From a virus: a DNA stretch of 32,832 nucleotides. The notes under the pieces were generated by a model. That model was not told where the DNA came from. It searched no databases and worked only from the letters and a program-made list of their open reading frames with translations. Both the position numbers and the translations under genes were made by a program. Shown piece after piece: positions 15,497-32,832 of the stretch. Location: positions 1-32,832 of the IMG/VR virus record IMGVR_UViG_3300046517_002301; one strand, written 5' to 3'. How positions within the stretch are numbered: the stretch's first letter is position 1; each line of letters begins with the position of its first letter.

Positions 15497-16503
15497 AAAA
15501 AATAGCCCTCATACTTCTCGGGATTGCAAGCTTTCAATTCTCCGCCTTCGCCATCTCCGGCGTGCTAAAACAAAGCACTGCCGCGAACGTGACTGTCGTG
15601 ATGATCGATTCGACCGATCACGTCACCGGGAAGACTGGCCTTACGCTCACAATCAAGGCGTCGAAAGCTGCGGCTTCGTTTGCCACTGTGACGCCTACTG
15701 TAACCGAATTAGAGGGCGGCATCTACAAGCTCGCCTTTACCACGTCGCACACCGATACGCTTGGCGAATTGCGCTTGCGTGTGACCAGCACCGGCGCGGA
15801 CGAGAGCGATCCGATTTGGCAGGTGGTCTCGCTGTTGCCAGGGGACGGCGTGACCGTTGGAACCAATAACGACAAGACTGGCTATTCTCTTAGCCAAACG
15901 TTCCCGTCCAACTTTTCTTCTCTCTCGATCGACGGCAGCGGCCGCGTGGACGTTATCAAGATCGCTGGAACGACACAGACAGCACGCGACATTGGCGCGA
16001 GCGTCTTGCTCGCAGCCAGTCAGCACGTGATCGTTGATTCGGGCACAGTCACCACGCTCACGAATCTTCCGAGTATCCCGGCCAACTGGCTCACCGCCTC
16101 CGGGATTGCAGCTGGCGCCTTGAATGGCAAAGGCGATTGGCTGCTCTCATCCAGTTACACCGCGCCGCCGAGCGCGGCTACGATTGCCACGACCATTTGG
16201 CAGGATCTAACTTCGAGCGGCGATTTCACAACGACCGGCTCGATTGGAAAACTGTTCACGACCGACATCGATGCTGCGATTTCTTCGCGATCCACTTATT
16301 CCGGTGGCGATACATCCGGGACTACGACGCTATTAACGCGAATCCCATCCGCGCTCACTATCACCACGGGCAAGGTGGACGTTAACGATAAGACCGGATT
16401 CAGTCTCACCAGCGGAGAGCGCACATCCATTTGGGCGACGCTCGTTCACTCGAAACAGGCCGGCGAATTGCTCTGGCGCGTCGCGAGCAGACCAAGCCCA
16501 TGA
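15493..16503 (+). CDS. Phage structural-type protein carrying a signal peptide
   Basis: 336 residues. The first 20 (MKKIALILLGIASFQFSAFA) are a clear signal peptide. The rest matches a plan I know from phage structural proteins: DHVTGKTGLTLTI, a beta domain ending in TVTELEGGIYKLAFTTSHTDTLGELRLRVTSTGADESDP, then TVGTNNDKTGYSLS, a low-complexity link, WQDLTSS...GSIGKLFTTDIDAAIS and LLWRV. The usual members sit in neck/tail modules and lack a signal peptide, so this looks like a fusion or a re-used exported N-terminus. It is coupled to its neighbours on both sides by ATGA overlaps. Confidence 0.6.
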   Translation: MKKIALILLGIASFQFSAFAISGVLKQSTAANVTVVMIDSTDHVTGKTGLTLTIKASKAAASFATVTPTVTELEGGIYKLAFTTSHTDTLGELRLRVTSTGADESDPIWQVVSLLPGDGVTVGTNNDKTGYSLSQTFPSNFSSLSIDGSGRVDVIKIAGTTQTARDIGASVLLAASQHVIVDSGTVTTLTNLPSIPANWLTASGIAAGALNGKGDWLLSSSYTAPPSAATIATTIWQDLTSSGDFTTTGSIGKLFTTDIDAAISSRSTYSGGDTSGTTTLLTRIPSALTITTGKVDVNDKTGFSLTSGERTSIWATLVHSKQAGELLWRVASRPSP

Positions 16504-17351
16504 TATTCGTGATGACTCTTCCGGGAGCGTCGTTAGCGAACGTCGCTTACCGATGGTTGGTAGCCGGCATTTGGGGCGACCCGCTCACCATCGGAATCAC
16601 CGACACCAGCTTGTTTTCCGCTTTCGTGATCGACTGCGTCCCGCCCGATGGCGCACAGGAAATCGCAGGCTACGATGTGACAGACGAGAGTAATTCTAGC
16701 CGTGGAAATTACCTTCTGCGGACTATATCCGGCGGCGCGAGTGTCGACGATATCGCGGCTCGCATCATCACCGATCACGGAGCCGGCAGTTACGCTGCTT
16801 CGGGCGGCGGTACCGGCGCGTTCCTGGTCACGGTGACCGTGAAAGACGAAGACGACGAGCCTCTTGAAAACGCCACCGTGCGGGTGAGCGAAGGCATAAA
16901 CGTTTTCACAGTCCTAAGCGATGCGAGCGGCGTGGCCGAGTTCAATCTCGATGCTGCGACGTACGCGCTCGGGATCTTCAAAGACGGCTACCAATTCACG
17001 CCGACGAGCATCGTGGTAACTGCGCCTGATGATTTCATCGGCATCCTCACGAGGATCGTCATTCCCGGGCCGAGCGGGCCTAACCAATGCGTTTGTTCCA
17101 TCGTCACACGCAACGCGCGCGGCGCTGCGCAGGCTGGCGTGAAAGTTAGTTTCAGCCTGGTGAGCGCACCGACACCCGATAGTTACGCGACAGGTGCAAC
17201 GTCGGCGACCTCAGACGGCACCGGCCTTTTGACAGTAGAATTGCGGAAAGGCGCTCATTACAACGGCCGTCGCGGAAGCGGTGTTGTAGTGCCGTTCGAT
17301 GTTCCCGACGCAGATGAATTCGAGCTTCCGCAAGTTCTTGGAGATCCATGA
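16500..17351 (+). CDS. Structural protein with carboxypeptidase-regulatory-like domains
   Basis: 283 residues from the ATG at 16500. Residues about 1-100 are a mixed domain (YRWLVAGIWGDPLTIGITDTS). About 108-190 form a beta-sandwich of the carboxypeptidase regulatory-like/Ig type (FLVTVTVKDEDDEPLENATVRV ... FKDGYQFTPTSIVV), and about 200-275 a second related domain (CVCSIVTRNARGAAQAGVKVSFSL). Such domains decorate phage heads and tails and help bind surfaces. It lies in an ATGA-coupled run with the preceding and following genes. Confidence 0.65.
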   Translation: MIFVMTLPGASLANVAYRWLVAGIWGDPLTIGITDTSLFSAFVIDCVPPDGAQEIAGYDVTDESNSSRGNYLLRTISGGASVDDIAARIITDHGAGSYAASGGGTGAFLVTVTVKDEDDEPLENATVRVSEGINVFTVLSDASGVAEFNLDAATYALGIFKDGYQFTPTSIVVTAPDDFIGILTRIVIPGPSGPNQCVCSIVTRNARGAAQAGVKVSFSLVSAPTPDSYATGATSATSDGTGLLTVELRKGAHYNGRRGSGVVVPFDVPDADEFELPQVLGDP

Positions 17352-21037: not shown

Positions 21038-22624
21038 ATGTCTGCAGGTGGAGCAACGATCATGGCCCGAATGGGCCTCGACATCAAAGGGTTCAAGGCC
21101 GAACTGCAAAACGCCAATGCCGCGACGCGCCAGCACACGGCCGCGGTCAAAGAAGCGAACGCTGCGCACTCGAAGCTCGGGAAAAATTTAACCGAAGGTC
21201 TTGGCGCACTCGGCCTCGGCACGGTGATCAAGGACGTCGTCGAGTACGGCGCGCACATCGAGGATCTGAGCCGCCGCTATGGCGTCGCAACCGAAGCGCT
21301 GCAGAAATTCGGGAACGCGGCCGAGCTCAATGGATCGTCTCTCGAAGCGGTGGCGAAAGCATTTCGCTTTTTGGAAGTGAACCAAGCCAAAGCGCTCGGG
21401 GGCAACGACGCGATGGTGCAATCTTTCGGGGCCCTCGGCGTTTCGATCAACGACCTGAAAACGCTTCGGCCCGAGGAAATCATGCTGAAAATCGGTTCCT
21501 CGTCTTTGAACGCGGCCGACCTGGTCAAAGCGCTCGGCAAAAGCGCGCTTGAAATCCGGCCGACTCTCGCCGGCCTGGCTGATGGGATGATCAAATTCGG
21601 CGAAGTGATCGACGATATCGACATCGAGCGGCTGAAAGAAGCCGACGACGAATTCCGCAAGCTCAAACAAACCGTGACGATCGGAGTCGGCACAGGACTC
21701 GGATCCATCGCGGCCAATTTCCAGCATGACGTTGCGGAAATGACCGCGCAGATTTTGGCATTCGCGGAAGAGGCAAAGGGCGTAGGCAGCGCGATCGCGA
21801 CGACCTTCTCAGCCGCGTTCGATATCGCAATCAGCAAAGCCTCTCAGCTGGGGTCAATCCTGGGCAAGCTGGCGAGTGGCGATTTTAAGGGCGCGGGGAA
21901 GTCGTTAGGCGAGGGCGACACTATCGACAAGATCAAGAAGGCCACAGCAGATTCGGAAAAAACCTTGGCCGATCATCACCAGCGGGCAAAGGACATCACT
22001 CAAGCGGGACACGAGGCCGCGGACGAATTTCTGAATCCTAAAAAAGAGAAAAGTAAGCGCCGCGATTTTGGGGTAGCGCCCGAGGACACCGGCGTCGGCG
22101 AATACGACGATCAAGGCCGACTGATCGGGGTCGGCAGAGGCAGCGGAGGGGGAGGAGGAGGCCGCGGAAGCAGAAGCAGTGATGATGAAACGCCGCTGCG
22201 TGATACCTGGGGCGCGAAGTGGGCAGCTGGCGGACACCCTGGGAGAACCGCCGACGTTGGTGAATCTCAAAGTCTCGTCGACCAAATCGAGAAAGCCAGG
22301 ATCGCTAACGAAGCTGCGCAGCGACCAGGTGTACAGCCGGAGGGAGAAACCGGAACTGGCGGCCCGAGTCTCATGGGTGCAGCCGCAGCGGCCGCACGAC
22401 AGGATGCTCTCGGTAAAACCGGAGAGGACTCGCGCGCCGCCGAGATCGAGCGCCAAACGCAAATCGAAAACACGCGCCGAGGACAAGGAAGCGGTAGCCG
22501 CGCCGACGATATTCAAAGAAGCCAGTTTGGTGCGCAGGACCAAAAAGGGAGCGAATTAAAAGGCGCGGCCGCCGATCTCAAAGCCGCTGCCGGCGAGCTC
22601 AAGAAAGCGCTCACGAACCAATGA
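21038..22624 (+). CDS. Tape measure protein
   Basis: 528 residues, the longest tail gene. N-terminus (MARMGLDIKGFKAELQNANAATRQHTAAVKEANAAHSKL) has the usual tape-measure helix start. The body is long and Ala/Lys/Glu-rich (KAFRFLEVNQAKALGGNDAMVQSFGALGVSINDL is the known conserved segment of siphophage tape measures), with a hydrophobic stretch about 225-285. The last 170 residues are low-complexity and Gly/Ser/Glu-rich (GSGGGGGGRGSRSS), then coiled coil. It sets tail length; if the usual 0.15 nm per residue holds, the tail would be roughly 80 nm. TTGACTCTC lies 22 nt before the ATG. A GAGGCG/CGCCTC hairpin overlaps its stop. Confidence 0.85.
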   Translation: MSAGGATIMARMGLDIKGFKAELQNANAATRQHTAAVKEANAAHSKLGKNLTEGLGALGLGTVIKDVVEYGAHIEDLSRRYGVATEALQKFGNAAELNGSSLEAVAKAFRFLEVNQAKALGGNDAMVQSFGALGVSINDLKTLRPEEIMLKIGSSSLNAADLVKALGKSALEIRPTLAGLADGMIKFGEVIDDIDIERLKEADDEFRKLKQTVTIGVGTGLGSIAANFQHDVAEMTAQILAFAEEAKGVGSAIATTFSAAFDIAISKASQLGSILGKLASGDFKGAGKSLGEGDTIDKIKKATADSEKTLADHHQRAKDITQAGHEAADEFLNPKKEKSKRRDFGVAPEDTGVGEYDDQGRLIGVGRGSGGGGGGRGSRSSDDETPLRDTWGAKWAAGGHPGRTADVGESQSLVDQIEKARIANEAAQRPGVQPEGETGTGGPSLMGAAAAAARQDALGKTGEDSRAAEIERQTQIENTRRGQGSGSRADDIQRSQFGAQDQKGSELKGAAADLKAAAGELKKALTNQ

Positions 22625-22765: not shown

Positions 22766-23617
22766 ATGCCTGACATTTACATCGACGGAAACTTCGATGT
22801 CGCGGAGCGCGTCGGCGCCGCGATCCCCGAGATTCCGTTCCCGACCGATCCGCAAGCCTACGTCTATCACGTGCCCTACTGGCAGAAGAAAACTGCGTAT
22901 GCGCCGATGGGCAAAGATGTGGCTGGTCCCTTTGGCGGGTTCTCCACCGGCGTCGACAAATCGCATACGGACGTCGGCGGCGGCATCATTTCGTTTCACC
23001 GCGAATTCGCGTTCGTGCCTCGCAGCCGAAATCAGTACGAGCGATTCGTTTACCCGTTCCAGGTCTGGAAAGGCGGCGACAGCCCAGGCGTGCAGGAATT
23101 TCCCTACAGCGTCAATAGCCGGATTCAGTTCGATTACTTCCAGACAACAGATCCCGATTCAATTGATCAGCCGCGCGCGCCCAGAGTGATCGACGTTTTT
23201 GGGAGGTTGTTTTTTCAGAATGGCTTTGGCCCGCCGGGCGGCGGGACCACGACATGGGGCGTCTCGTTATCCAATGGCGGCCTGGGCCACACCGTTGGCC
23301 AGATTATCGGTTACAGCGACCCGTGCATCTCGTTCAGCATTCGCGTCACAGCGATTGGTCCGGCGGGCAGTCTTGTCGCGTACGAACAGCAAGGTGCCAA
23401 CGTTTGTAACCCTGCGAACATCACCAACCCGTACGCGGTCGGCGATCCGATGCACGGCGGGGCCGCATTTAATCTGTTTAGCGTCTACCAAGCTCCTTCG
23501 GGCGCGGAGATTCTAGCCGAGGACGCAGAAGCGCACCTCTGGAAAGGCAACATCTACGAGCGCCGGCAGCGCTTCATCAAGTGGGTGAGCGATTACACGT
23601 TCCTGCTCGGAAGCTGA
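22766..23617 (+). CDS. Distal tail-region protein, unknown family
   Basis: 283 residues. Aromatic and Gly-rich: a start IYIDGNFDVAERVGAAIPEIPF, then YVYHVPYWQKKTAYAPMG, FHREFAFVPRSRNQYERFVYPFQVWKGG, and a C-terminal ERRQRFIKWVSDYTFLLGS helix. Size and position after the tape measure suggest a distal tail or baseplate protein, but the sequence does not let me name it. The next upstream box/start pair (22680/22700) does not lead into this frame, so the family B insertion may have separated the gene from its native start signal. Confidence 0.5.
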   Translation: MPDIYIDGNFDVAERVGAAIPEIPFPTDPQAYVYHVPYWQKKTAYAPMGKDVAGPFGGFSTGVDKSHTDVGGGIISFHREFAFVPRSRNQYERFVYPFQVWKGGDSPGVQEFPYSVNSRIQFDYFQTTDPDSIDQPRAPRVIDVFGRLFFQNGFGPPGGGTTTWGVSLSNGGLGHTVGQIIGYSDPCISFSIRVTAIGPAGSLVAYEQQGANVCNPANITNPYAVGDPMHGGAAFNLFSVYQAPSGAEILAEDAEAHLWKGNIYERRQRFIKWVSDYTFLLGS

Positions 23618-23621
23618 TCGC

Positions 23622-23816
23622 ATGGCTGAGCAAATTTCAATGCCTCAACAGGGCGCTAAAACCAATCAGCTCTGGAAAACCGTGTCCGAGCTCGTCAAGG
23701 CAGTGAACGCGCTGCAGAACATGACGGTCACGCCTACCGGTGCTGGCAAGTTCGTGCCCGGCGAAGGGAACATCGTTCTCGCGTTGAACACTGACGACAA
23801 GTGTCTGCCACCTTAG
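23622..23816 (+). CDS. Small tail-region protein
   Basis: 64 residues, beginning 5 nt after the preceding stop. It contains a helix (TNQLWKTVSELVKAVNALQNM) and a short Gly-rich tail (GAGKFVPGEGNIVLAL). Small helical proteins like this are common beside tail fibres as chaperones or trimerisation modules. It overlaps the following GTG by 16 nt, which suggests coupling to the Cys-rich gene. No family recognised. Confidence 0.5.
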   Translation: MAEQISMPQQGAKTNQLWKTVSELVKAVNALQNMTVTPTGAGKFVPGEGNIVLALNTDDKCLPP

Positions 23817-24934
23817 CCATTCGCAACGGCTTGCTGCTGACTAGGAGCGGCAAGCTCAGCACCAACTGTTGTAACGCTGTAGGCGCATGCCGCGCCCCCG
23901 ATGGAAGCTGCTCGCTCAAGACTGCCGCAGAGTGCGCGACCGCCGGCGGCACCTACCTTGGGGACTGTAAGAAATGTGGTGGGGGCGGCGTGGTCTCACC
24001 CTGTTGCCCAACACCGTCGCTACGCTGCGATCAGATCTGCGCTAGTGCGCAAAGGTGCGGTTATCCGCCCCTTGGTCCGTTTAGCGGGAATTGCTGGAAA
24101 AAACTTAACTGCAGCTTCGTCCTCGAAACACCGGTCGACTGTTCAAGCCGCTGGTTCAGCAGTTTTGAGCGCTGCTGCCCTGACGGAGCGCAAATCAAAG
24201 GTGGCAGATGCAATTTGCCAGCTGATTACTGCAATGAACACCCTGAATGTTATGGCACACCTTTCTGTGCAGGGCCGTGCTGCTGCTCTCCTTGCAGTGA
24301 TGAGAGTGTTTGCGAGGGCTGTACCGGATGCGCTGCCTGCCCGCCAGGTTCGTTTGGTAGTACGTTTGAAGTCGCAGATGAAAATACCGAGGACGTCGTC
24401 GCGAAAGCTTATTCCCTGCTTCCGGATTACGACGGTGTTTTTACCGATGACTGTTTAGCTTCCCGTAGCTCCACTTATGGCAGTTTTTCATTCTGCCGTT
24501 TTCGTTACAAATGGACCTGGGCCAGCCCACTCGAAGAAGCCTGCACTGTCTACTGGATTGAGCGCACCTACGACGGCGACGGCAATCCGATCGGCGACGT
24601 TGAAATGTCCGAGACTGTCAGCGCAGGCTCGACCGAAAGCAGCGTCCACGAAGTCCTGGAGCCAAGTGAGAACGGCACGATTAGCGTCCTTCGGAAAAGT
24701 GCGTGCTGCGTGTGTGAAAACTGTTCGGTGGAAACCGAAGAAGACTGCAGTGCCTTGGGTGGCACGCAGACCGGTGCTTGCGGCTGCACTCCCAATACAT
24801 GCACGCATTGTGGTGCCTGCTGCTTGTTTGGAGACTGCTACGAGGGCGTCTCTCAAGGAGATTGCGAAGACTTCGGGGGCACCTTTATCCCTGACAAAAC
24901 CTGTGAAGAAGTGGAATGCCCACCGCCGGAATGA
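23801..24934 (+). CDS. Cysteine-rich protein with GACC-type repeats
   Basis: 377 residues with about 47 cysteines. At least three modules share a plan of paired Cys, Gly-x-Cys, a helix ending in Cys, Gly-Gly-Thr and two closing Cys: AVGACRAPDGSCSLKTAAEC..GGTY near the start, CENCSVETEEDCSALGGTQ, and CGACCLFGDCYEGVSQGDCEDFGGTF near the end. This is the GACC-type repeat I know from exported proteins of Planctomycetota and relatives. Between them lies a domain of about 100 residues with few Cys (EVADENTEDVVAKAYSLL ... FRYKWTWASPLE). No signal peptide is evident, so it is probably assembled into the virion, perhaps forming disulfides after release. The GTG start at 23801 overlaps the previous gene. 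Confidence 0.65.
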   Translation: MSATLAIRNGLLLTRSGKLSTNCCNAVGACRAPDGSCSLKTAAECATAGGTYLGDCKKCGGGGVVSPCCPTPSLRCDQICASAQRCGYPPLGPFSGNCWKKLNCSFVLETPVDCSSRWFSSFERCCPDGAQIKGGRCNLPADYCNEHPECYGTPFCAGPCCCSPCSDESVCEGCTGCAACPPGSFGSTFEVADENTEDVVAKAYSLLPDYDGVFTDDCLASRSSTYGSFSFCRFRYKWTWASPLEEACTVYWIERTYDGDGNPIGDVEMSETVSAGSTESSVHEVLEPSENGTISVLRKSACCVCENCSVETEEDCSALGGTQTGACGCTPNTCTHCGACCLFGDCYEGVSQGDCEDFGGTFIPDKTCEEVECPPPE

Positions 24935-25458
24935 ACCAGCGCCATTTCAACAACGGCGTCCTAGCCAAAGAGATTCGTGACGGAATTCCGATCACCGACA
25001 ACCTGGGCAAAACGCCGGCGCAACTAGCCGCGGATGCTCGCGCAGCAAGGAAAGATCCAGTCGCCATACCAAAGGCGGCGACGGCAACACAAGGCGGCGC
25101 AGGCACCGAGCTAAAGAAGCTGCTTTCAAAGCTCGGCCTGAAACCTGCCGCCAACTGCAAATGCAATCAGCACATTGCCGAGATGAACCAAATGGGTATC
25201 GCGTGGTGCACCGCGAACATCGACACAATCGTTGGCTGGCTCAGAGAAGAAGCGGACCGAATTAAGCTGCAACAGCAAACCGCGACCGCAGAGTTGAAGC
25301 GGCTTAGATCACTTCCCGCAGATCAACGGCCCGCAGACGAATGCCTTGCTGCGCTTGAGCTAAATAGCAAAGCTCGAGTAGTGCCCTTCACGAGCATTGG
25401 CGCACGGATCCTCGTGAAACGCGCGATCTCTAATGCCAGGAAATTAGCCAAGGTTTGA
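24931..25458 (+). CDS. Conserved phage protein with CxC motif
   Basis: 175 residues from ATG 24931, overlapping the Cys-rich gene stop by 4 nt. The middle (ELKKLLSKLGLKPAANCKCNQHIAEMNQMGIAWCTANIDTIVGWLREEADR) contains a C-x-C and a downstream Cys, a likely zinc site. The C-terminus (PFTSIGARILVKRAISNARKLAK) completes a pattern I have seen in proteins encoded next to tail fibres in phages of Planctomycetota and relatives. Function unknown. Its stop codon TGA lies within the TTGACAGAC box for the next gene. Confidence 0.6.
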   Translation: MNQRHFNNGVLAKEIRDGIPITDNLGKTPAQLAADARAARKDPVAIPKAATATQGGAGTELKKLLSKLGLKPAANCKCNQHIAEMNQMGIAWCTANIDTIVGWLREEADRIKLQQQTATAELKRLRSLPADQRPADECLAALELNSKARVVPFTSIGARILVKRAISNARKLAKV

Positions 25459-26634: not shown

Positions 26635-27387
26635 ATGGGCGAGCGTTGCTACACCGAGCGCCCGCCGGGAACAGCGGACGTGATAACCGCCGACACGCTT
26701 CGGCTTGAAGCAGTCACCGTGTGCGTCGGGTTCGACGATTTTCTTGATGTCACGCTGAGCCTCAACATGGCGCAAGTCGATCACATGATTGTCGTCACGT
26801 CGCACGAGGACAAGCGCACCCACAAATGCTGCAACAAACACGGCGCAACGATGGTGCAGACAGATCTGTTCAAGAAGAACGGCCGCAATTTCAACAAGGG
26901 CGCTGCGATCCAGCAGGGCTTCAACTATTTCCACTTCATGGGTTGGCGGATCCACCTCGACGCAGACATTGCGTTGCCAGACAATTTCCGGCGCGTGCTT
27001 TTCAACCGCACGCACCTGGACCGGCAATGCATCTACGGTGCGGACAGAATGGACATCGTCGGGTTAAAGCTGCTCATGAAGATCCGGAGCTCTCCGCAAC
27101 ATCTTTACGGCTCGCATGTCCGGATCGATGGACCGCTCGGGCACCGTTTCATTGATCCGCTCAACGGCTACGTGCCGATCGGATTTTTCCAGATGTGGCA
27201 TGCCACGTCGCATCGCCATTATCCTCACTCGCTCGGAAGCGCAGCGCACGATGACACGATGTTTTCCTCGCAGTGGAAAGAAGAGCATCGCCGGCATCTG
27301 CCGACCGTGGTCTGCCAGCACATTCTCTCGGCGCCGTCCGTGCAAGGCGAAAATTGGGACGGCCGCCGCAAGCAACCGCGGCTTTAG
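26635..27387 (+). CDS. GT-A glycosyltransferase in the late region
   Basis: 250 residues. A VTVCVGFDDFLDVTLSLNMAQVDHMIVVTS start (about 27-56) gives the Rossmann-like half. D109-A-D111 (WRIHLDADIALPDNF) is the DxD-type metal/sugar-nucleotide site. A later GFFQMWHA..H and HDDTMFSSQW fit a glycosyltransferase family A/2-like fold. No membrane segments. Late position beside the lysis genes suggests modification of a virion or cell-surface component rather than DNA. It starts with an ATG that abuts the preceding small ORF (TAAATG). This is distinct from the TAGT-like enzyme at 1188-1940. Confidence 0.75.
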   Translation: MGERCYTERPPGTADVITADTLRLEAVTVCVGFDDFLDVTLSLNMAQVDHMIVVTSHEDKRTHKCCNKHGATMVQTDLFKKNGRNFNKGAAIQQGFNYFHFMGWRIHLDADIALPDNFRRVLFNRTHLDRQCIYGADRMDIVGLKLLMKIRSSPQHLYGSHVRIDGPLGHRFIDPLNGYVPIGFFQMWHATSHRHYPHSLGSAAHDDTMFSSQWKEEHRRHLPTVVCQHILSAPSVQGENWDGRRKQPRL

Positions 27388-32026: not shown

Positions 32027-32832
32027 GCCAATTGCCGGAAACACTTCCGCTGCTCGGGCTGGATGGGATCGAGCTTAGGAAGGGTAACCACGGGGCGCGC
32101 GCCCAAGGCGTCTGCGTGATGGAGGCGGTGGCCTGGATCGCAGGCGAGCCGCACAGCGATCATCCGGTATGCGCGTGTCCGGTAATCACTTCGTTTATGA
32201 TCAGCTGGAACGATCGGTTGCCGAGCGATGCAGAACGGAATCGACTTTTGAAGCCGTTAGTGCCGCTGCTTGTTGGTACGCGATCGACGCGCGCGGTGGA
32301 ACGGCACCGGCTGGAAATGATCCGTGATTTTGTGGTGCGCGATGCGGCGCCGGCGGCGCTATCGCTGGCCGGCTTGGACGCCGCAGCCGATCTACTCAGG
32401 GAGAATCCGACACTCGAGAATATTCGCAAAGCTCGCAATGAGGCGTGGGAATTAAGGGCTGCGGCTCGTAAGAAACTCGTCGATGCGGGCGTCGCTGCGG
32501 GCGTCGCTGCGGGCGTCGATGCGGGCGTCGCTGCGGGCGTCGCTGCGGGCGTCGCTGCGGTCGTCGCTGCGGGCGTCGCTGCGGTCGTCGATGCGGTCGT
32601 CGCTGCGGTCGTCGCTGCGGTCGTCGATGCGGTCGTCGATGCGGGCGTCGCTGCGGTCGTCGATGCGGGCGTCGCTGCGGTCGTCGATGCGGGCGTCGCT
32701 GCGGTCGTCGATTGGAGAAAGCTCGATTATTGGGAAGCGCTCGCGAAGGCGAAGGAAATCGCGCGGCCAATATTCGAGAAAAAATTCGCGCCGCTCAAAG
32801 CGGCGCTTGAGCTCGGGGCACAAGATCTGGTG
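32023..32832 (+). CDS. Conserved phage/bacterial protein with 19-unit tetrapeptide repeat, 3' truncated
   Basis: 270 codons visible, open at the window end. Residues about 30-120 ([31 protein letters not shown], then [28 protein letters not shown]) match a widespread unknown-function family found in phages and actinobacteria. Residues 153-228 are nineteen tetrapeptides of Val-(Asp/Ala)-Ala-(Gly/Val) encoded by the 12-bp array, giving a long hydrophobic, small-residue segment. A normal charged sequence follows ([19 protein letters not shown]). It is coupled to the preceding gene by ATGA. Antisense frames across the array are repeat artefacts. Confidence 0.75.
32479..32706 (+). repeat. Tandem array of nineteen 12-bp units
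   Basis: Unit GTCG(A/C)TGCGG(G/T)C, 19 perfect-length copies (228 bp), in frame. Only two positions vary: base 5 (Asp or Ala) and base 11 (Gly or Val). Units 14-19 alternate DG/AV three times, giving a 24-bp higher-order period. No spacers exist, so this is a minisatellite, not CRISPR. Confidence 0.95.

Follow-up and report, generated by a model that had tools for sequence, protein, structure and literature searches.

This locus raises the question of why a virus should encode, in what looks like its tail region, a protein crowded with cysteines, and how disulfides could form in such a protein if it is assembled in the cytoplasm. The window, by which we mean the whole stretch of DNA that was analysed, corresponds to a 32,832-base virus record in IMG/VR. 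An uninterrupted reading frame on its plus strand runs from a GTG at 23801 to a TGA at 24934, and encodes a product of 377 aa, here called P0001, that has 47 Cys (12.5%), which is the composition estimated in an earlier sequence-only reading of this DNA. Since Cys averages 1.2% over the 34 other ORFs of the window that were taken as genes, a high Cys content is not a trait of the whole genome. The N-terminus of P0001 reaches a maximum 12-residue hydropathy of 1.15, and by this hydropathy test, rather than by a dedicated predictor, has neither a signal peptide nor a transmembrane stretch.

The sequence-only reading had also described three repeat modules around a Cys-poor domain. This observation is partly confirmed: the modules and the domain are present, but the layout has to be corrected. 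P0001 begins with one module (A), continues with a Cys-dense region of a different kind and a Cys-poor domain, and ends with two further modules (B and C). The three modules, edges included, account for only 20 of the 47 Cys (5, 8 and 7, respectively), while 22 lie among the 122 residues of the Cys-dense region (residues 64-185, 23990..24355), which does not consist of these modules and had no match when compared with 7094 reading-frame stretches from the loci then collected. The Cys-poor domain (residues 186-299, 24356..24697) has 3 Cys in 114 residues. Full-length P0001 matches a 417-aa homologue found in a related phage contig (L024/L029; E 3e-14 by pairwise blastp), and the Cys-poor domain alone (186-300) still matches it with E 8.1e-6. 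The structure model of full-length P0001 has a pLDDT of 40.2 and offers no reliable fold for this domain. No Pfam or NCBIfam family fits P0001, a sequence search of the PDB gave no match, and neither did searches of viral contigs and genome contigs with P0001.

We define the repeat, called the GACC module, as a six-Cys unit of the form CC-x-C-x-C-x-C-x-C with GGT between the fourth and fifth Cys; no curated model of it was found. Its common core was first obtained by aligning the three mutually similar stretches of P0001, and a scan of viral contigs with that core matched 18 stretches, of which one (L022) was confirmed. The identification of the repeats as GACC-type, as proposed from the sequence alone, is borne out by an independent profile. 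An HMM built only from 26 modules of L022 matches P0001 three times, at residues 28-60, 301-334 and 338-373 (E 1.1e-4 among 2001 sequences), and none of 2000 shuffles of P0001 was reported by it at E <= 1000. The wider collection, again with P0001 excluded, comprises 141 distinct modules from 29 non-redundant proteins, and modules A, B and C score 13.2, 8.7 and 32.0 bits with a wider HMM that likewise excludes P0001. Module C (residues 338-373, 24812..24919) is a complete six-Cys module (E 8.6e-9 with a profile excluding module C); module A (residues 28-61, 23882..23983) has Arg in place of the second of the six Cys; and module B (residues 301-335, 24701..24805) carries extra Cys and is weak, its match being marginal when taken alone. 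All of these features lie on the plus strand.

Of the 106 modules that span the profile, 102 have the full set of six Cys, a count that rests on modules gathered by a Cys-rewarding profile, and the 4 modules that miss a Cys are too few for joint losses to reveal the pairing. Outside the Cys scaffold the modules vary strongly, and their copy number ranges from 1 to 19 per protein. An AlphaFold2 model of modules B and C of P0001, based on an alignment of 24 tandem pairs, has a mean pLDDT of 86.1 and a pTM of 0.56, and predicts a beta-beta-alpha-beta arrangement that is seen twice. Foldseek searches found no match at E <= 0.001 in either the PDB or BFVD. The best structural neighbour of module C is the membrane-proximal region of ADAM17, which is rich in disulfides, with 40 residues superimposed at 1.8 Å; however, the Z score is only 2.8 and the Foldseek E-value 1.7, which is no evidence of kinship.

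The surroundings of the gene place it in a tail block, which supports the earlier description of P0001 as a tail-region protein. PHROG matches on the plus strand occur in the order terminase, portal, head protease, major head protein and tape measure. The tail length tape measure gene (21038..22624; phrog_9483, E 1.1e-10) is followed, all on the plus strand, by a gene for a 283-aa minor tail-region protein (22766..23617), a small gene of 64 aa (23622..23816; best family match E 0.045), the Cys-rich gene, and a gene for a 175-aa protein that we call GTEL/CxC (24931..25458, with its core at 25093-25272). A search of viral contigs returned no relatives of the 283-aa gene; its product matches the gene behind a long tape-measure-like ORF of another fetched locus, L002 (E 2.9e-7). 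The stop codon of the 64-aa gene lies inside the Cys-rich gene, and the stop codon of the Cys-rich gene overlaps the start of the directly adjoining GTEL/CxC gene in an ATGA (24931-24934). These overlaps suggest translational coupling.

Three other features of the window were recorded. A gene at 16431-17351, in the structural region, encodes a carboxypeptidase regulatory-like/Ig-like domain (Pfam E 3.6e-8), and its product is perhaps a surface decoration. Beside the contig end, at 32478-32712, is a 12/24-base tandem repeat with ~19 copies of 12 bases and 90% matches. A gene at 26635-27387 resembles glycosyltransferases by eye; viral contigs contain 18 genes related to it (identity up to 63%), bacterial genomes 2 and INPHARED none, and it lacks a Pfam match at E <= 1. 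The suspicion, raised by eye near several GACC genes, that such genes generally go together with glycosyltransferases was rejected: PF00535 occurs in only 3 of 14 records with GTEL genes, and no GACC ORF was present in the fetched stretches of the 18 viral loci (L002-L019) that have a relative of the window's glycosyltransferase-like gene.

The GTEL/CxC protein has no significant match in Pfam, NCBIfam or PHROG, and a scan of the IMG/VR viral contigs with its GTEL...CxC core matched 424 stretches, which yielded 380 relatives. We examined the best 80 of these 380, chosen by their likeness to the window's own gene. A GACC ORF stands beside the GTEL ORF in 24 of these best 80 loci; in 21 of the 24 the end of the GACC ORF is -150 to +300 bases from where the GTEL ORF is called to start, and the remaining three show a 169-base overlap of the called ORFs. 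A Cys content of at least 4% was found in 29 of 40 non-redundant genes upstream of GTEL, versus 33 of 570 background ORFs (odds ratio 43, Fisher p 1.5e-23), where 11 of the 80 loci had fallen out of the count, 8 because the GTEL ORF was lost to an overlapping ORF and 3 because they had no upstream gene. GACC modules occur in 10 of the 40 upstream neighbours. The 11 of 40 that lie below 4% Cys include mis-picked genes, such as that of L080, where the GACC ORF is in another frame. Upstream, a long low-Cys ORF is found in 33 of the 38 GTEL loci with room for one, and 13 of these long ORFs share a match to a single tape-measure PHROG, a number that refers to this PHROG and not to the union over families.

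Homologues of the window's GTEL gene lie directly behind a GACC gene in L062/L029 (E 6e-34), L034 (2.7e-13) and L036 (1.3e-5). The first two match over the GTEL core, whereas the match in L036 is confined to the N-terminal part and does not cover the core. L034 and the window have tape measures with matches to the same PHROGs; in the contig of the closest relative (L029/L062) no tape-measure gene was recognised, and two upstream genes have no PHROG. In L002, only fibre-like low-Cys genes occupy the place of the Cys-rich gene, which, together with the low-Cys neighbours among the 40, suggests that the Cys-rich body can be replaced. What is new here is the pairing of a Cys-rich gene with a GTEL/CxC gene, which recurs across the tail regions of many uncultured phages. 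Among the individual loci, the GTEL ORF of L132 itself carries 41 Cys in 329 aa, and that of L157/L158 is 575 aa long.

P0001 is also connected to this family by its N-terminus. The motif TLAIRNGLLLTRSGKLSTNCC (residues 4-24; 23810..23872, plus strand) is common to other Cys-rich genes, most of which are upstream of GTEL genes, and fits the pattern NGxLIxxxGKL...CC. P0001 matches a profile of 11 chosen rows with E 8.9e-4, these being the 11 matches out of 18 that remained after 7 had been removed by hand because they were internal, noisy or near-copies. P0001 was not among the matches (E <= 100) of an earlier and noisier profile with 16 rows. The best local score of the P0001 motif against the 11 family N-termini is 60, which none of 2000 shuffles reached (maximum 41). 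Some neighbours that have no GACC modules have differing Cys-rich bodies behind a common N-terminus of the kind ATKNGSLIVKDGKLAENCGCC. A set of 46 neighbours, out of 75 picked at the 80 loci, came from a rule favouring stretches with at least 6 Cys, and in this set the strict N-terminal motif is present in 9 of 46, versus 6 of 656 background stretches, and a C-terminal NPLP in 13 of 46, versus 3 of 656. P0001 has no C-terminal NPLP and ends in PPPE; with 13 of 46 neighbours having it, NPLP marks only part of the family. NPLP-like endings were seen on otherwise different Cys-rich proteins upstream in L084, L088, L094, L096, L105, L113 and L127, and likewise in the upstream genes of L128, L140, L142, L149, L150 and L154.

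GACC modules are also found well beyond this gene pair. Searches with two fixed-spacing DNA patterns turned up 7 and 24 stretches, and across the loci L001-L052 we counted 40 ORFs, the window's own included, that match the GACC HMM at E <= 1. The L022 locus encodes five proteins in a row that are packed with Cys and GACC repeats. In the same record, baseplate wedge genes, which mark the contig as T4-like, flank a Cys-rich ORF that has one module (E 2.5e-5), and other module ORFs are found further along. One carrier of L022 contains seven FG-GAP stretches, repeats that are known from adhesion proteins. A tape-measure gene of L038 adjoins the gene for a 949-aa protein that has three modules at its C-terminus, and in L045 wedge genes are present, with the module ORFs at least 9 kb away. 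Two further ORFs of these records are rich in Cys and have no GACC module at E <= 0.05: one in the L022 record (L075:6094-9242), near baseplate wedge genes, has 96 Cys in 549 aa, and one in the L045 record (L078:12162-18992), beside wedge genes, has 266 Cys in 2276 aa. A near-identical short GACC gene occurs in L034:6666-7475, L042, L048 and L051; its called start is probably too early, the true start likely being the Met before ACCCC.

Some carriers resemble collagen-like tail and tail fibre proteins (PHROG 30509 and 8745), in that they bear GACC modules behind a GxT-rich N-terminus. This architecture was recognised in L031 by weak PHROG matches of the N-terminus to tail fibre and collagen-like tail families, and in L022, L025 and L052 by sequence. 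P0001 differs from these proteins in that it is much shorter and has no collagen-like part. Among sequenced phages in INPHARED, nothing was found with P0001, the tandem module of L022 or the GTEL core of L034, and module C gave only three chance-level matches (E 8-9); the plasmids in PLSDB yielded nothing with module C, the tandem module or the GTEL core. None of the titles listed by searches of the open-licence literature deals with phage GACC modules or with the gene pair described here, which is not proof of absence.

The GACC module also occurs in cells, where a profile of the same kind matches it. Using a profile that includes module C of P0001 as one row, and that served for the Acidobacteriota, Bacteroidota and record-level searches, we found GACC modules at E <= 0.001 in 8 of 149 Acidobacteriota genomes, and in none of 148 Bacteroidota genomes, a set without any genome known to match. 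The GTEL core was found in none of 297 Acidobacteriota, again a set without any genome known to match. All eight Acidobacteriota carriers have N-termini that by eye resemble those of signal peptides or lipoproteins, with hydropathy maxima of 1.88-2.70 from start codons picked by the analyst. This agrees with the earlier statement that such modules occur in exported proteins, and contrasts with P0001, whose maximum of 1.15 likewise upholds the claim that it has no signal peptide. The 24 phage-locus proteins with a closed N-terminus, P0001 among them, range from 0.13 to 1.83, with some starts uncertain, so that the phage and bacterial ranges nearly touch. The GACC modules of L063, L064, L065 and L067 (Acidobacteriota) are on long exported proteins, whose C-termini by eye resemble what we take to be multicopper oxidases. 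The idea that the Cys-rich part was acquired from a host is not supported as stated: modules and gene pair are spread over many phage contigs, and a recent private acquisition thus appears unlikely. Cys-rich cell wall or surface proteins have also been described in Planctomycetes, the YTV proteins (PMC8567305); these are cellular and defined by a YTV motif, and no tie to GACC modules was seen.

A precedent for Cys-dependent domains in phage tails is the tail-tip protein gpL of lambda and its relatives, where four Cys surround one [4Fe-4S] cluster as described for gpL (PMC10721106), and synthesis of P0001 in the cytoplasm would be compatible with Cys that hold zinc or an iron-sulfur cluster in a similar way, with no need for cytoplasmic disulfides. 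The four-Cys arrangement sets gpL apart from P0001, which has no PHROG homology to gpL-type tail-tip families, its only match being phrog_29447, of unknown function (E 0.19). Each module has six near-invariant Cys, there are only 3 His in the 377 residues, and the 9 CxxC motifs are not clearly in excess of a shuffle mean of 5.7, with 181 of 2000 shuffles as high. These properties favour disulfides over zinc in the GACC modules, and the sampled bacterial carriers look exported, so we consider metal binding very unlikely, although the argument from the modules does not extend to the central region with its 22 Cys. Most likely, judging from the sequence pattern, the modules hold three disulfides each. 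As P0001 has no export signal, these would form only after the cell has lysed, or else in the next host's envelope. Among 20 records searched for phage-coded oxidation, PF04777 was found in none, a result that carries no weight as no positive control matched, and thioredoxin PF00085 in one, under its cut-off.

The position behind the tape measure gene, the overlap with the GTEL/CxC gene, the recurrence of the pair and the fusion of modules to tail-region proteins make a tail role likely. We consider the chances about even that P0001 is an adhesion-type structural protein of the distal tail, either at the tip or on a side appendage, of a tailed and probably siphovirus-like phage. Under this model, P0001 would be made together with its overlapping GTEL/CxC neighbour as part of the tail block. 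Its short N-terminal strand and CC cluster would be the conserved attachment part, and the GACC modules, predicted to be small beta-beta-alpha-beta units with presumably three disulfides each, would be rigid, protease-resistant and exchangeable surface units that touch the host envelope. The protein would be synthesised in the reducing cytoplasm without a signal peptide, and oxidation to disulfides would probably take place once the cell has lysed, in air or in the envelope. Modules that differ in sequence but keep the same Cys scaffold, and that occur in differing numbers on unrelated carrier proteins, fit exchangeable surface units, and Cys-rich modules are the kind of part that is used outside cells. 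An adhesion role is plausible, and the earlier interpretation is partly supported. Pfam, NCBIfam and PHROG searches matched P0001 to no receptor, lectin or fibre family.

The same variability of the modules outside their Cys scaffold, with 1 to 19 copies per protein and their addition to quite different proteins, would also be expected if P0001 were in the tail and its modules stabilised the tip against proteases or drying with no binding to the host. However, these facts also fit exchangeable binding units, and one carrier contains FG-GAP repeats, and we regard such a purely stabilising role as unlikely. P0001 could also be a late protein that is absent from virions and acts at lysis or on the host envelope, its gene lying between tail and lysis genes by chance; that no tail family matches P0001 itself, and that the gene pair of L036 is followed by small genes that by eye resemble membrane and lysis genes, would agree with this. 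Yet P0001 has no signal peptide or transmembrane stretch by hydropathy, and elsewhere GACC modules sit within long tail-region phage proteins, which makes a role outside the virion very improbable.

The adhesion reading admits a bolder form, which we consider quite unlikely. In it, the modules would be reduced, unfolded and non-sticky in the cytoplasm, and disulfide folding as the particle leaves the cell would be the last step in the maturation of the adhesion device. If true, new particles would be kept from binding too early to the debris of their own host, and the conserved Cys-rich and GTEL/CxC pair would serve a large group of uncultured phages as the shared carrier of this device. The locus makes disulfide formation in cytoplasm-assembled virions directly testable, and the GTEL core, the GACC module and the N-terminal and NPLP motifs provide anchors for genes that are blank in the family libraries used. 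If the adhesion reading is right, many uncultured phages, represented by the 380 stretches with a GTEL core in IMG/VR, would carry an unannotated tail device made of Cys-rich modules.
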